Shown here: positions 253 to 5,384 of the stretch, one piece after another
How positions within the stretch are numbered: the stretch's first letter is position 1
Layout of the letters: every line of letters begins with the position of its first letter
Origin: Thermoplasmata archaeon
GTDB lineage: Archaea; Thermoplasmatota; Thermoplasmata; Methanomassiliicoccales; Methanomethylophilaceae
NCBI GenBank assembly: GCA_015063125.1
Contig: SUTB01000007.1
Coordinates: forward strand, 1-64,000
DNA length: 64,000 bases
Reading direction: 5' to 3'
Notes under the pieces: generated by a model
The model's database searches: none
What the model saw: the letters and a program-made list of their open reading frames with translations, nothing else
Told to the model about the DNA's origin: nothing
Translations under genes and position numbers: made by a program

Positions 253-1653
253 ATGTCCATCATGGCAGACGTTCCCGATTTTCAGACCACGGAAGAAGGC
301 AGGCAGTACGAGCAGGAGATCATGATCATCCTCAGCGCCGAGAAGAAGGATTATCCGAATTACTTCGGCGGACTGAAGATAGCCTCTGGACATGAGTTCA
401 AGATCTCCAGCCCCATCGATCCCACCATCGAGTACGGGATCTTCCAGGAGCCCGAGGAGGGGACCATGGAGGAGGCCGTCACCGCTGCATCCAAAGCTTT
501 CGAGCAGTGGAGTAAGAAGTCCGCGGAGGAGAGGATCGGGTACTTCAAGGCCCTGCCTGGAGTCCTGAAGGCCAGGAGGGAACATTATGCGGCAGCGATC
601 ACCGTGAGCACTGGAATGGTCCGCGAGGATGCCCTTGCTGAGGTGGATGCCGCCATCGTCGCCATAGAGAAGATCCTAGAGGATGCCGCCAAGATCGGAA
701 GGAAGAGTCCCTTGGGCGTATGGGCAGTCATCACCGCCCACAACTCCCCATTCGCATCGCCCGTCGCCTATTCGGTGGCCGCGATGGTGGCAGGGAACAC
801 AGTCGTCATGAACCCTTCCAGATATGCGCCCATGCCGGCACACATGTTCTACAACCTGATGGAGAAGTACAACCTTCCCGCGGGGGTCCTGAACCTCATC
901 GTGGACAGGAAGGAATACTCAACCGAGGCTTTGGCCAACGACATGCGCTTGGCGGGTATCGTGGCATCGGGATCCGGAGACAGGCTGGAGAACCTCATGT
1001 TCCTCCAGGTGGACGATGAGATCAGGTTCGTCAACGAGATCAAGGGAATGAATCCCGCATTGGTCTACAGGCCCTCCGACATGAAGGCCACGGTCAGGAA
1101 CATCATCGATTCGGCGTTCTCATACACCGGACAGCGTCTGTACTCGTGCTCGAAGGTCATCATCACCCGTGACGACCAGGCGAAGTTCAACGAGGTCATA
1201 TCCGAGTTCATGAAGGATCTGAAGGTCGATGACCCTGTGAACGACACAGCATACACCGGGCCCGTCATCAACGATGAATCCGCCGAGAAGTTCAAGGCGA
1301 AGGCGACGGAGCTCCTGCCGTTCACCATAGCGAAGGCGGCACCGGTCTCCAAGGAACTCCCCGAGAATTATGTGGCGCCCATCGTGGTAAGTGGGCTGTT
1401 CGAGGAGGACGACCTCAACTACATGGATTCCGGACTGCCCATTCTCAACGTGATGGTAGTGGATTCAGTGGACAAGATGTTCGAGGAGCTGGAGAACACC
1501 GAATGCGGTCTTTCCGCAGGAATATTCTCCAAGGATGCCAAGGTCATCGATCGCTTCAACAAGGATGCTGACGTCCCTGTGAAGTATGTCAACGAGAGCA
1601 GCAGGACTATCAGGCCCGCATGCACGGTGAGCCTCGACGCATTCCACAGTTGA
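253..1653 (+). CDS. Aldehyde dehydrogenase superfamily protein lacking the catalytic cysteine
   Basis: A 466-residue ALDH-fold protein. The Rossmann-type cofactor domain includes the HNSP segment (about 163-166, matching the PWN motif region). The general-base Glu is kept at about 262 (NEIKG). The nucleophile position in the GQKCSAC-like motif reads GQRLYSCS: Leu about 296 replaces the catalytic Cys, and a second Cys remains at about 299. The usual cofactor-contacting Lys in the VVKPSE-like motif is also changed (VVMNPSR). The protein is therefore probably not a normal aldehyde oxidase and may be a binding or structural homologue. The start was chosen because a TATA-like CTTAAT at about 229-234 fits a leaderless start near 253; ATG 262 is an alternative. 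It converges end to end with the next gene, with no gap. Confidence 0.8.
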   Translation: MSIMADVPDFQTTEEGRQYEQEIMIILSAEKKDYPNYFGGLKIASGHEFKISSPIDPTIEYGIFQEPEEGTMEEAVTAASKAFEQWSKKSAEERIGYFKALPGVLKARREHYAAAITVSTGMVREDALAEVDAAIVAIEKILEDAAKIGRKSPLGVWAVITAHNSPFASPVAYSVAAMVAGNTVVMNPSRYAPMPAHMFYNLMEKYNLPAGVLNLIVDRKEYSTEALANDMRLAGIVASGSGDRLENLMFLQVDDEIRFVNEIKGMNPALVYRPSDMKATVRNIIDSAFSYTGQRLYSCSKVIITRDDQAKFNEVISEFMKDLKVDDPVNDTAYTGPVINDESAEKFKAKATELLPFTIAKAAPVSKELPENYVAPIVVSGLFEEDDLNYMDSGLPILNVMVVDSVDKMFEELENTECGLSAGIFSKDAKVIDRFNKDADVPVKYVNESSRTIRPACTVSLDAFHS

Positions 1654-2217
1654 TCAGTTCGTCTTGACGTTCCAAGTGCAGCCTTTGGCAGCTGAAACCA
1701 GGGAGGACATCTCGCTCTTCTTCAGGGGATCTTTCCGATCCTGTCTGAGGACGATCATGGAGCATCCTTTGCATTGATCGCCAACGGCCTTGACGCTGTC
1801 GGCATCGTGTTCCTTGGCGTTCAGTGTAATGGCGAACTTGCATCCGTTGTCCTTCAGGATCTCGATGCAATCCTTCTGTTCATCAGTGAGCGATTTGCCT
1901 ATGAGGATGTTCGCCGCATGCACATAGCCAGCACCTACCAGATCATCCAATATCGAAGGGTCGCGTCCGTCCGTGACGATCAGCACCTTCATGCCTCTAG
2001 GTTTCACGGATTTGATGAGCTTGTAGGTGTCATGCGAAGACAGGGGATCGGAATCAGAATCGACACCAAGGTAGTCCAAGGATTCCTTGTCCGTTTCCAA
2101 TGTCGTTCTAATCTGATCAGTGTCGGCCTCTTCACCGTCCTCGGACAGATGGATGACCGCCATGAACTTGTCGGGTACGGTGACCGTGTCTATCCTTGAG
2201 AGTCCGGTTATGTGCAA
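1654..2217 (-). CDS. Radical-SAM-like protein of the NrdG/PFL-activase type without CxxxCxxC
   Basis: 187 residues with a TTG start. The N-terminus (MHITGLSRIDTVTVPDKF) follows the MKIGGLQK..LIDYPGK opening of archaeal ribonucleotide-reductase/PFL-activating radical SAM enzymes. A later segment resembles the family's GGEP..DL..LIK..KPRGMKV..TDG stretch. The CxxxCxxC loop that binds the [4Fe-4S] cluster, expected near residues 28-36, is absent: the sequence runs straight on with Glu and Asp residues. It is therefore probably not a radical enzyme but a fold-retaining descendant. It is the last gene of the ACT/CdhD-like/CdhE-like operon, 1 base after its neighbour. The family assignment rests on pattern matching and is moderately certain. 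Confidence 0.55.
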   Translation of the reverse strand: MHITGLSRIDTVTVPDKFMAVIHLSEDGEEADTDQIRTTLETDKESLDYLGVDSDSDPLSSHDTYKLIKSVKPRGMKVLIVTDGRDPSILDDLVGAGYVHAANILIGKSLTDEQKDCIEILKDNGCKFAITLNAKEHDADSVKAVGDQCKGCSMIVLRQDRKDPLKKSEMSSLVSAAKGCTWNVKTN

Positions 2218-2218
2218 A

Positions 2219-2863
2219 TCAATACCTCAGGGTATCAAGGAGGGTACTGAGGACATCGCAACAGTCCCTGTCCAGATCATCGGTTATCACCGCAACGTCA
2301 TCGCTTGAAAGAAGGGCCACGGAGGCCATGCTGAGGGCGTATTCCCCGGACCATGTTCTGATGGCCGGGAAGACGAACTCGGTCCCCAGCAGATTCAGCA
2401 CGCGCTTGAGGTATGTGTATGTCTCAAGACACTGCTTCATGTTCTTCACCATCGGGTCCAGCAGGATCTCCTGAACGCCCATCTCCTTCGCCTTCAATCC
2501 CAGGTCGACCAGGACCTCCGGATCCTCCTCGCTTATGCACAGTTCGGTGTCGAAGGCACTTGCGATCTCCGCATAGCGCTCCAGATTGTCCCTGTTCGCT
2601 CCCTTTATCGTCACGAAAGTAACGTCGATGCTCTCCACGGCCTTGAGGATGACCTCAGGTTCTTCCGATTCCAGGATGATCGATTTCTTCCAGATCCCCC
2701 GGACCAGTTTGGCCACGGATACGAAGGGCTCCTCCGAGAAGCTGTCGTTCCTGATGCATATGCAGTCGGGGACTGAAAAATTGTACTTGGCTTCCTCGAT
2801 ATCGGCGACCCTCTTGCGGATATCGTCCTCCTCCATGAGGTCAGAAATGGACACCGCGATCAT
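2219..2863 (-). CDS. CdhE-like TIM-barrel protein (ACS corrinoid protein gamma-subunit barrel only)
   Basis: 214 residues that align with the central TIM barrel of the gamma subunit of acetyl-CoA decarbonylase/synthase. Shared features are a CIRNDS strand, an IILESEEPEVI strand, a conserved MGVQEILLDP strand (residues about 129-138 region) and an FVFPAIRTW strand. The N-terminal Fe-S cysteines and the C-terminal corrinoid-binding domain of true CdhE are missing. The start overlaps the stop of the CdhD-like gene (ATGA), so the two are probably translationally coupled. No CODH/ACS catalytic subunit is in the window. The role is unknown; pterin or methyl-group binding is an inference from the barrel family. 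Confidence 0.6.
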   Translation of the reverse strand: MIAVSISDLMEEDDIRKRVADIEEAKYNFSVPDCICIRNDSFSEEPFVSVAKLVRGIWKKSIILESEEPEVILKAVESIDVTFVTIKGANRDNLERYAEIASAFDTELCISEEDPEVLVDLGLKAKEMGVQEILLDPMVKNMKQCLETYTYLKRVLNLLGTEFVFPAIRTWSGEYALSMASVALLSSDDVAVITDDLDRDCCDVLSTLLDTLRY

Positions 2864-3693
2864 AGGTCTGCCAACTCCTCCCCGTACACGCGGGCCATGT
2901 CCGCGGAACCTGGGGATTTCACTATTATCACATCGGCCCCTGCCATCATAGCGGTCAGTGCGGCCGTTGCCTCTGCCATGGTGCCAACCCTGGCCGGGAG
3001 GAATATCTCCTCATCCTCGTACCAGGTCGTGGACACGTCGCATACGATGTTGTGTCCGAATCCTTCCATTCCGAGCAGGCCGTCCTCACGATAGGACATG
3101 ATCCTGTCCCTGAGGTCCTTCATGCCTCCGCCTTCCCTTGCCCTGCCGAGATCCACTAGGACCTTCTTAGCACCCCTTTCCTTCATTTGCTCGATCATCC
3201 GCTGGGGGTCGTCATCGCATACGGCCACGACGATGTGCTCTCCGCAGCAACCGGCCATCTCCAGGCTCTGTTCGCTGTCCAGGCAGTTGATGATCAGCAC
3301 CGTATCCTTGATGCTCTCAGCAGTGCTCACGAGGATGTCAGCATCGCCGGAGATCATGATGGGCAGCCTGGTCCTCTGAGAGATCCTGGCCACCAGTTCG
3401 GGGGAATCGTCCCTGCTCAGCCTGAGGCATACTCCGTCAGCCCCGAGCTCCTTCCACATGACGGCCCATTCCTCGATGTCCTTCTCACGTCCGGAGAACA
3501 TGGGTTCGACTTCTTTAGGGTAGCCGGTGATGTTGTCATAGGCCTCTCCGAAGATGACCGGCCTTCTGTGTCTGGCCCCGTCCAGGTCCAGGAACGCAGG
3601 GCTCCTTGCCCCGCCTATGAGATAATCCCCTTTTCCTAACGCGAGCTCTTCGATCTCCGCAGGGTAAGTGCGGGACACATCGGGGAGCTGCAT
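2860..3693 (-). CDS. CdhD-like TIM-barrel protein (ACS delta-subunit family)
   Basis: 277 residues starting at MQLPDVSR. The segments GEAYDNITGYPKEVEPMF, then WAVMWKELGADGVCLRL, then TVLIINCLDSEQS resemble the delta-subunit/pterin-methyltransferase barrel (W-A-x-x-x-E-x-GAD, then the strand before LD). The start follows the ACT gene stop by two bases. The frame is open further upstream, but that part overlaps the ACT gene and reads as its shadow. Together with the CdhE-like gene it forms a reduced pair without the Fe-S or corrinoid domains and without CODH subunits nearby. Confidence 0.6.
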   Translation of the reverse strand: MQLPDVSRTYPAEIEELALGKGDYLIGGARSPAFLDLDGARHRRPVIFGEAYDNITGYPKEVEPMFSGREKDIEEWAVMWKELGADGVCLRLSRDDSPELVARISQRTRLPIMISGDADILVSTAESIKDTVLIINCLDSEQSLEMAGCCGEHIVVAVCDDDPQRMIEQMKERGAKKVLVDLGRAREGGGMKDLRDRIMSYREDGLLGMEGFGHNIVCDVSTTWYEDEEIFLPARVGTMAEATAALTAMMAGADVIIVKSPGSADMARVYGEELADL

Positions 3694-3695
3694 GA

Positions 3696-4604
3696 TCACA
3701 TCAACTCGACGAACTCTTTGAGGACGAATACGCCGTTCAGGTTGTCCAGCGATTTGGGCAGGAGGTCCCTGATCTCGGATGCGGTCTTGTTGCTCTTGCA
3801 GATGTCCATGACCAGCTCGAGGCTCATGGTCTCGTAGCAGATCTTGACCTTGCTGAAAACGGATATGAGGTTGACGTTCCAGTCGGCGATGCCTGCAAGC
3901 GTCTGTGTGATGCTTCCGGGGCAGTCGGGGATCTCCATCGAGACCTTGACCAGCTTCGTCTCCTCCTTGAAGAGCGTGATGGAGCAGATCCATGAATCGG
4001 CATCCATGGTGATGAGGACGTTCTTACCGTCGAGGTTAGGCAGGATGTCGCCGTAGACCTCCGCGATGTCGAAGCATCCGTTCTTGATTGTGGTGGGGTA
4101 TCCGCGCCTGATCTCCTCCTTGCCGGTCTCCTCGACCTTGCCCTTGAACAGCCTTCCGATGTCGGCGGGCTTGATCTCGATCCTCTTGATCTTGGAGACG
4201 GAGGGGTCGTTGTTGTGCTTGAGCTCCTTGAACTTCTCGAGGAGCAGCTCTCCCTCTCCGGCGAAGTTCATGTCGGCCATGAGCTTCCAGACGATGACGG
4301 TGTCGGATATTCCGTTCAGCGAGACCGAGTTCAGGATGTTGATCTCCCTCTCGGCCAGGAAATGCGCGGCCTGGGCACTGGATCCCGGGACGTCGTCCAG
4401 GTACATCGTGATGTGCGTCAGGGTGCGGTAGTTCTCCTGAGGGAACATGGAAAGCATGATCTCGTAGTTCTTGGGACCCTGTTCCGGATGCTTGAAAAGC
4501 GTGCTGTAAACACATCCGCCGTCGACGATACCAATAGTGTCCGATATCCAGTTGTCGACCTTGATCGATGAGCCATTGACCTTCGCGAATTCCCAAATCT
4601 TCAT
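3696..4604 (-). CDS. Protein with two ACT domains
   Basis: 302 residues. The first ACT-like beta-alpha-beta unit spans about 58-130 (THITMYLDDVPGSSAQ, then AEREINILN). The second is at about 218-300 (KVSMEIPDCPGSITQTLAGI, then VNLISVF). ACT domains usually bind amino acids, so a ligand-sensing or regulatory role is likely; the ligand cannot be read from the sequence. It is the first gene of a four-gene leftward operon. A TATA-like box lies at 4636-4644, and a palindrome lies between the box and the start. Confidence 0.7.
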   Translation of the reverse strand: MKIWEFAKVNGSSIKVDNWISDTIGIVDGGCVYSTLFKHPEQGPKNYEIMLSMFPQENYRTLTHITMYLDDVPGSSAQAAHFLAEREINILNSVSLNGISDTVIVWKLMADMNFAGEGELLLEKFKELKHNNDPSVSKIKRIEIKPADIGRLFKGKVEETGKEEIRRGYPTTIKNGCFDIAEVYGDILPNLDGKNVLITMDADSWICSITLFKEETKLVKVSMEIPDCPGSITQTLAGIADWNVNLISVFSKVKICYETMSLELVMDICKSNKTASEIRDLLPKSLDNLNGVFVLKEFVELM

Positions 4605-4644: not shown

Positions 4645-4854
4645 TTATCGTTTGGGGTTCTTCAGGTCGAATTGGTTCTTGGGGGAAGTTAGGGGCTGCG
4701 TCCACACGGGCTGCTCCTTCGATTGGTATCCCATGTCCTCCGAGATGTTGTGGAGGCTTCCCGCATAATCCCTGTCGGATGCGATCCTGCGGATGATTTG
4801 GGAATCATCGCCGGAGCGCTGCTCCATGCCGGACTTGCAGAGAGCTTCGTCCAT
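4645..4854 (-). CDS. Small helical hypothetical protein, 5' end uncertain
   Basis: 69 residues from the first ATG. The frame stays open and protein-like for about 22 further codons upstream, to about 4920 (it includes RIEKLRKAERLLNEAADL, an amphipathic helix), without any ATG, GTG or TTG. An AGGAGG sequence lies at the end of the upstream gene, about 4920-4926. The true protein may therefore begin at a non-standard codon (for example ATA or ACG) just after that site, or a base may be missing. It is downstream of the zinc-ribbon gene. The family is not recognised. Confidence 0.55.
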   Translation of the reverse strand: MDEALCKSGMEQRSGDDSQIIRRIASDRDYAGSLHNISEDMGYQSKEQPVWTQPLTSPKNQFDLKNPKR

Positions 4855-4915
4855 GAGGTCGGCCGCTTCGTTGAGGAGTCTCTCCGCCTTCCTGAGCTTC
4901 TCTATCCTGTCCGTT

Positions 4916-5308
4916 TCAGTCCCTCCTGGTGATGATGTACCTGGCGGGTCTGGTCGCCCCGCTCTTGGCGTTGTATCCGCATCTGCTGCAGATCCTCGAG
5001 AGCTCTACAGTATCCCCGTCGAGAGTCATGTTCCTGATGGATTCGAGCTGTCCTCTGCACACGGGGCACTTCACGTAATCCATCGGAGCGTCGGTATGGG
5101 CGTACCTGATCTCGAGGTTGAAGAGACCGTTCTTTATGCCCACCTTCCTGATGCGCTCCCCGCTGACACGGAAGTTCTCGTCGACGCACATCAGCTCCGT
5201 CTGGACCAGTTCGTTCAGGACGGTCTGGGACCGGATCCTGGGCGAACGTGTGAGACAATTGTCGATCGCCTTCGCGATCTCGTAATCCTTCGGGATCCTG
5301 TAGGACAT
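4916..5308 (-). CDS. HTH plus zinc-ribbon protein
   Basis: 130 residues from MSYRIPKD. The N-terminal 60 residues look like a winged-helix or helical bundle (IAKAIDNCLTRSPRIRSQTV). Residues about 80-115 carry two CxxC pairs (CPVC and CSRC) typical of a zinc ribbon. The C-terminus is basic. The start was chosen because a TATA-like ATATATTTG at about 5328-5337 lies about 25 bases upstream, which fits a leaderless start. A DNA- or RNA-binding role is inferred. Confidence 0.6.
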   Translation of the reverse strand: MSYRIPKDYEIAKAIDNCLTRSPRIRSQTVLNELVQTELMCVDENFRVSGERIRKVGIKNGLFNLEIRYAHTDAPMDYVKCPVCRGQLESIRNMTLDGDTVELSRICSRCGYNAKSGATRPARYIITRRD

Positions 5309-5384
5309 CGTCAGGGAATCTCGTTCCAAATATATTGACGATGGGGGTTGTGTTTATGTAGTGCGATGGATTAGACTGCTTTGC

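Follow-up and report, generated by a model that had tools for sequence, protein, structure and literature searches.

A pared-down CdhD/CdhE and radical SAM operon in gut Methanomassiliicoccales, a probable in-place remainder of an ACS, corrinoid Fe-S protein and MesB-type cluster

In Dehalococcoides mccartyi and in Methanomassiliicoccales, ACS genes are known to occur in a cluster linked to MesB, which was reported to be the only methionine synthase of this order and to be linked to the corrinoid Fe-S protein (CFeSP; small subunit AcsD/CdhD, large subunit AcsC/CdhE) (Price et al. 2021, PMC7857596). In gut Methanosarcinales, another report describes the loss of CdhA and CdhB from Methanimicrococcus and Methanolapillus, and of CdhC as well from Methanolapillus, with other Cdh subunits being kept (PMC11362671).

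The locus described here lies in the 64,000-nt stretch of DNA that we analysed as a whole (the window), and it compares with these systems in several ways. Its d and e genes are orthologues of CdhD and CdhE by sequence, position and gene order, and e shares the CdhE TIM barrel; unlike CFeSP, however, the pair has no 4Fe-4S and corrinoid domains, and its genome has no ACS, CODH or MesB methyl acceptor. Related genera have a full locus with the arrangement of the MesB-linked cluster (ACS, CdhD, CdhE and a MesB-like protein), whereas the window's genus lacks MesB and ACS and carries a derived remnant. As in the gut Methanosarcinales, some Cdh subunits were retained by gut-adapted methanogens after loss of CODH/ACS; this occurred in a different order, and the available part of that report mentions no stripping of retained subunits to bare barrels (PMC11362671). 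A limited search of the open-access literature returned no report of bare-barrel CdhD and CdhE together with a motif-less radical SAM protein.

Composition of the reduced operon

Four adjacent genes occupy positions 1654-4604 of the window on the minus strand, head to tail in the order ACT, d, e and x4. The first gene of the operon encodes a 302-aa double-ACT-domain protein (3696..4604, minus strand). It is followed by d (2860..3693, minus strand), a 277-aa reduced CdhD/AcsD TIM barrel; by e (2219..2863, minus strand), a 214-aa reduced CdhE/AcsC of which only the TIM barrel is left; and by x4 (1654..2217, minus strand), a gene with a TTG start whose 187-aa product derives from an NrdG2/PFL-activase-like radical SAM protein. 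Spacings are tight, with 2 nt between ACT and d, a 4-nt overlap of d and e, and 1 nt between e and x4. At d, the open reading frame of 377 aa runs upstream into the ACT gene, and d was taken as 277 aa. Convergent with the operon is an ALDH-family gene (262..1653, plus strand; PF00171, 1.9e-62).

The d protein reached 50 bits against the acetyl-CoA decarbonylase/synthase delta model NF003376 (E 1e-13; cut-off 280), and the profile of its family aligned with the CFeSP small subunit 4djd_D over 242 profile positions, nearly its whole length (2e-33). Homology therefore covers the small-subunit barrel, with a model score below the cut-off and with only 41 of the 101 positions conserved in full CdhD retained. 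The 60 losses cluster in a central stretch that corresponds to LDxNLxKQ and DPLMAxLGMGLxYSYSVxER of full CdhD proteins, while the N- and C-terminal parts of CdhD are kept. To judge from these lost positions, the corrinoid contacts of d would also have disappeared.

In the case of e, the reduction has sharp borders. The protein matches PF03599 above the Pfam cut-off (1.5e-13) and the gamma model NF003195 far below the NCBIfam cut-off (4e-22), and a profile search of solved structures aligned it with the CFeSP gamma subunit over residues 93-266 of the latter (1e-7), so that homology to the CdhE TIM barrel starts at about residue 93. It begins at strand 1 and stops after helix 8 of that barrel, and it has neither the N-terminal 4Fe-4S domain (PF04060 cysteines) that the full relative carries, nor the linker, nor the C-terminal corrinoid domain. 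The AlphaFold model is a complete (beta-alpha)8 barrel of eight strand-helix units (pLDDT 95.6), for which Foldseek returned CFeSP 2ycl_A as the best match (TM 0.88), then DHPS and KDO8PS. Pterin binding was considered as a function and set aside as unsupported: the likeness to DHPS ranks below that to CFeSP and is common to this barrel family, including CFeSP itself. The mouth of the barrel, at the C-terminal ends of its strands, is the most conserved part (0.656 versus 0.47-0.52; 4 of 213 circular shifts were as high); TIM barrels usually have their active face on this side. Many of the mouth residues are inherited from CdhE, and part of this conservation pattern is ancestral.

The x4 protein matches the NrdG2 model TIGR02495 weakly (E 0.005), its other radical SAM matches being marginal, and x4 finds the intact radical SAM protein at the corresponding locus of relatives with E values of 3e-10 to 3e-12. 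It is thus a relative of the NrdG2-type activase by both position and sequence, but it is shorter (187 aa versus about 232 aa) and, while retaining LDDLxGAG, it has neither CxxxCxxC nor the SAM motif GGEP. CxxxCxxC is absent from every x4 of the genus. The AlphaFold model (pLDDT 95.6) has the partial barrel typical of radical SAM proteins, without the cluster and SAM motifs, and its best Foldseek matches are structures of the radical SAM protein NifB.

These searches confirmed the original prediction that four contiguous genes of the ACT, CdhD-like, CdhE-like and cysteine-less radical SAM families are present here, with d recognised by delta models, e by PF03599 and the gamma model, and x4 weakly by TIGR02495. 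The prediction was also correct in describing the Fe-S and corrinoid domains as missing.

The flanking genes have features of their own. Profile matches of the ACT protein are weak (PRK08577, 1.8e-12). Upstream of its gene and on the same strand, two small open reading frames without a Pfam match encode a protein of about 90 aa (about 4651-4920, minus strand) and a 137-aa protein with a zinc-ribbon-like motif, CPVC...CSRCG (4916-5329, minus strand); similar-looking small proteins lie upstream of ACT in one related locus (L038). In the ALDH of the window, the position of the catalytic Cys reads Leu (GQRL). Nearly all related loci have Leu, Met, Ile, Pro or Val at this position, and an unrelated ALDH in L049 has GQKC. 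The sequences suggest that the ALDH of the locus is probably a pseudo-enzyme conserved throughout the family.

The same slot across the order

We compared the locus among 120 genomes of Methanomassiliicoccales, in which CdhD-like genes were found in 82, CdhC in 63, MesB-like genes in 66 and the ACT gene in 113. In most genera the slot is full and reads ACT, ACS, CdhD and CdhE on one strand, CooC-like, MesB-like and RACo/AcsV on the opposite strand, and then an NrdG2-type radical SAM gene on the first strand and ALDH on the second. ACT is more distant in family f2, and among the loci of families other than the window's, only part showed the radical SAM and ALDH genes. Members of the full cluster score above the curated cut-offs for ACS (NF040764), CdhD (NF003376), CdhE (NF003195) and NrdG2 (TIGR02495; 207 bits, cut-off 131), and RACo is recognised by PF14574. 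HCC and TPQCG motifs occur in the MesB-like proteins and agree with the zinc ligands given in PMC7857596.

In the window's genus (g1), whose records come from ruminant and other gut samples, ACS, CooC-like, MesB-like and RACo are all missing between ACT and ALDH. The slot reads ACT-d-e-x4-ALDH in 20 of 26 genomes and ACT-x4-ALDH, with d and e gone, in the other six. Reduced and full loci are bounded by the same ACT and ALDH genes, the latter forming a fixed outer boundary, so the locus is reduced rather than a free-standing operon. A tree of the ACT protein groups all reduced loci of the genus in a single clade (SH-aLRT 99) that lies among loci of the full and intermediate types, and the locus type changes state 5 times, the least possible number. 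The operon is therefore not the orphan that it was originally taken for, but the remainder, reduced in situ, of an ACS/CFeSP/MesB cluster that is full in other genera; the gene order itself is, as the prediction asked of relatives, conserved across the genus.

Other genera show other states of the slot. In g5 it reads ACT-ACS-CooC-RACo-radical SAM-ALDH, with a divergent ACS and without CdhD, CdhE and MesB; the ACS of these loci (L067-L071) has all four A-cluster cysteines, with CGC changed to CSC, and CooC and RACo are kept. Genera g3, g4 and g6 have ACT-radical SAM-ALDH, and some of these loci lack the radical SAM gene or have it in altered form. A single polypeptide for CODH and ACS occurs in several families of the order: in L045 (2391-6467, plus strand) residues 21-637 match CODH (TIGR01702; 718 bits with a cut-off of 478) and residues 659-1356 of the same frame match ACS alpha/beta (NF040764; 984 bits with a cut-off of 800), and single open frames of about 1357-1367 aa are found in L045, L039, L048, L050, L056 and L057. 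ACS frames of about 960-1020 aa with an N-terminal extension of ~270 aa occur in L038 (6783-9695, minus strand), L033, L035, L037 and L040. No CODH match was found in the extension of L038; from its place in the sequence it is perhaps the eroded CODH domain of the fusion.

The rest of the pathway is missing from the genome of the window as well. CdhC, the ACS catalytic subunit, has no match in this genome, which is 99% complete, and none among the listed genomes of the genus, and the best CODH match in the window's genome reaches 27.5 bits versus a cut-off of 478. The absence of a CODH/ACS catalytic gene, first noted for the window, thus holds for the whole genome. A 535-aa open reading frame with a prismane match was examined as a CODH and rejected, as it falls below the CODH cut-off; its size would suggest a hybrid-cluster protein instead. 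A prismane-family frame with one in-frame TAG is found at G042:C1:1721902-1723404 (minus strand). Members of the order read TAG as pyrrolysine in methylamine methyltransferases. A second CFeSP elsewhere in the genome was ruled out, since e is the only PF03599 match. Methionine synthase was also not found in this genome, with no match to MesB, PF02574 or PF01717, the last of these negatives being weak as PF01717 matches in 5 of the 120 genomes and misses MesB-like proteins. Methionine auxotrophy is predicted to accompany the loss of MesB. Two RACo/RamA-like open reading frames are present elsewhere in the genome.

Selection on the reduced genes

Of the 26 genomes of the genus, 20 have open frames for all three genes, d, e and x4. 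In the nine genomes nearest to the window, dN/dS is 0.23 for d, 0.29 for e and 0.24 for x4 (0.09 for ACT); across the genus it rises to 0.47-0.64, versus 0.09-0.19 in full clusters, where CdhD and CdhE have 0.18-0.19. Synonymous sites are near saturation and these ratios are approximate. Long x4 frames with uncertain ends in L060, L131 and L132 were excluded from the x4 selection analysis or fold alignment. The lower values near the window and the higher ones genus-wide, taken with the loss of d and e from six genomes, indicate that constraint on d, e and x4 is relaxed but real, modest in degree and not universal in the genus.

Two further observations bear on this. Between the window and a conspecific genome, d, e and x4 together have 15 synonymous versus 6 nonsynonymous differences (p about 1e-5 against neutrality). 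When neutral drift was simulated to half of the synonymous distance between members, genes acquired about 7-9 stops each and none stayed open, whereas the real d, e and x4 have no internal stop at such distances. Invariant or near-invariant residues specific to the genus have also appeared, namely S67, R107, G87 and M239 in d, and W171, D198, C145 and C202 in e. The fixation of new residues points to re-specialisation of the encoded proteins more than to simple decay.

A retained operon and its possible role

The three reduced genes, d, e and x4, are not pseudogenes, and they do not form an unrelated module. They descend from CdhD, CdhE and an NrdG2-type protein, have lost defined parts of these, retain the folds of e and x4, and are under selection. 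We favour the explanation, which we hold with some confidence, that an ancestral ACS/CFeSP/MesB-type cluster left this operon behind in place, where it was kept after loss of the pathway as an operon of pseudo-enzymes. Of the members of the full cluster, ACS, CooC-like, MesB-like and RACo are absent from the slot, and CdhD, CdhE and the NrdG2-type protein survive there in pared-down form. The survivors are intact across the genus despite having lost their metal- and B12-binding parts, and therefore they probably do a new job. The original description as a repurposed module is in line with the intact frames, the purifying selection and the new invariant residues.

The main null is slow decay, in which d, e and x4 would be vestiges on the way to loss, held by weak residual constraint (e.g., polarity or folding toxicity) and without a function of their own. 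The six genomes of the genus that lost d and e, the high genus-wide dN/dS relative to full clusters, and the stepwise shrinkage of the locus elsewhere in the family, where several genera have only ACT-radical SAM-ALDH, are all compatible with such decay. However, 20 genomes keep intact frames at near-saturated synonymous distance, the new invariant residues are not mere loss, dN/dS near the window is low, and e was trimmed precisely to a complete barrel. The selection data thus disfavour decay, although some members of the genus may be undergoing it, and we consider it a minority explanation of some weight. An explanation in which only DNA or translation is constrained, the gene ends carrying signals for the next gene, could account for genes that overlap or abut and for the last residues of d, which lie over the ribosome-binding region of e and are invariant in the genus. 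It is highly improbable, as conservation covers the N-terminal third of d and the interiors of e and x4, and selection acts on amino acids.

Among the catalytic alternatives, the chief one is residual methyl transfer. The d and e barrels would here act as an adapter for free-standing corrinoid proteins of methanogenesis and pass methyl groups to biosynthesis, a role compatible with their CFeSP ancestry, with the fold similarity of the e barrel to the pterin-binding DHPS, and with the two remaining RACo/RamA-like frames. Yet CFeSP itself shares the DHPS similarity, and the corrinoid domain (along with the Fe-S domain), the most conserved stretch of CdhD (LDxN..KQ, DPLMA.LGMG.) and every recognised methyl acceptor are missing, and because of this methyl transfer is disfavoured and, in our estimate, improbable. 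The suggestion of pterin or methyl-group handling consequently finds no direct support. Amino-acid control, suggested along with it, fares no better: the ACT gene is kept in many genomes of the order without any Cdh gene, and therefore its role with d, e and x4 is suggested by position only.

Returning to a retained pseudo-enzyme operon, we tentatively propose a mechanism. The d and e proteins may still form a pair, like the two barrels at the core of CFeSP, with x4 associating as a third, non-catalytic partner, in a complex that would bind a ligand or serve as a scaffold and would use neither redox nor B12 chemistry. A ligand or a protein might bind at the mouth of the e barrel, its most conserved part, and the ACT protein could, from its position, regulate the complex. 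It is possible, though we would not call it likely, that the CFeSP core and a radical SAM activase, both disarmed, form a new complex here whose small-molecule specificity, at the mouth of e, is new as well and which is possibly coupled to ACT, parts of the Wood-Ljungdahl pathway having been exapted to a regulatory or carrier function in rumen and gut methanogens.

For annotation, these results serve as a warning that labels such as 'acetyl-CoA decarbonylase/synthase subunit' do not imply a Wood-Ljungdahl pathway here. A single conserved slot records the dismantling of an ancient locus for carbon fixation and methionine synthesis in host-associated methanogens, in states that comprise the CODH-ACS fusion, ACS alone, ACS without CFeSP, stripped CFeSP barrels and none of these. 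Parts of such a locus can outlive their chemistry under selection, and the locus offers a testable case for the exaptation of metalloenzyme subunits.
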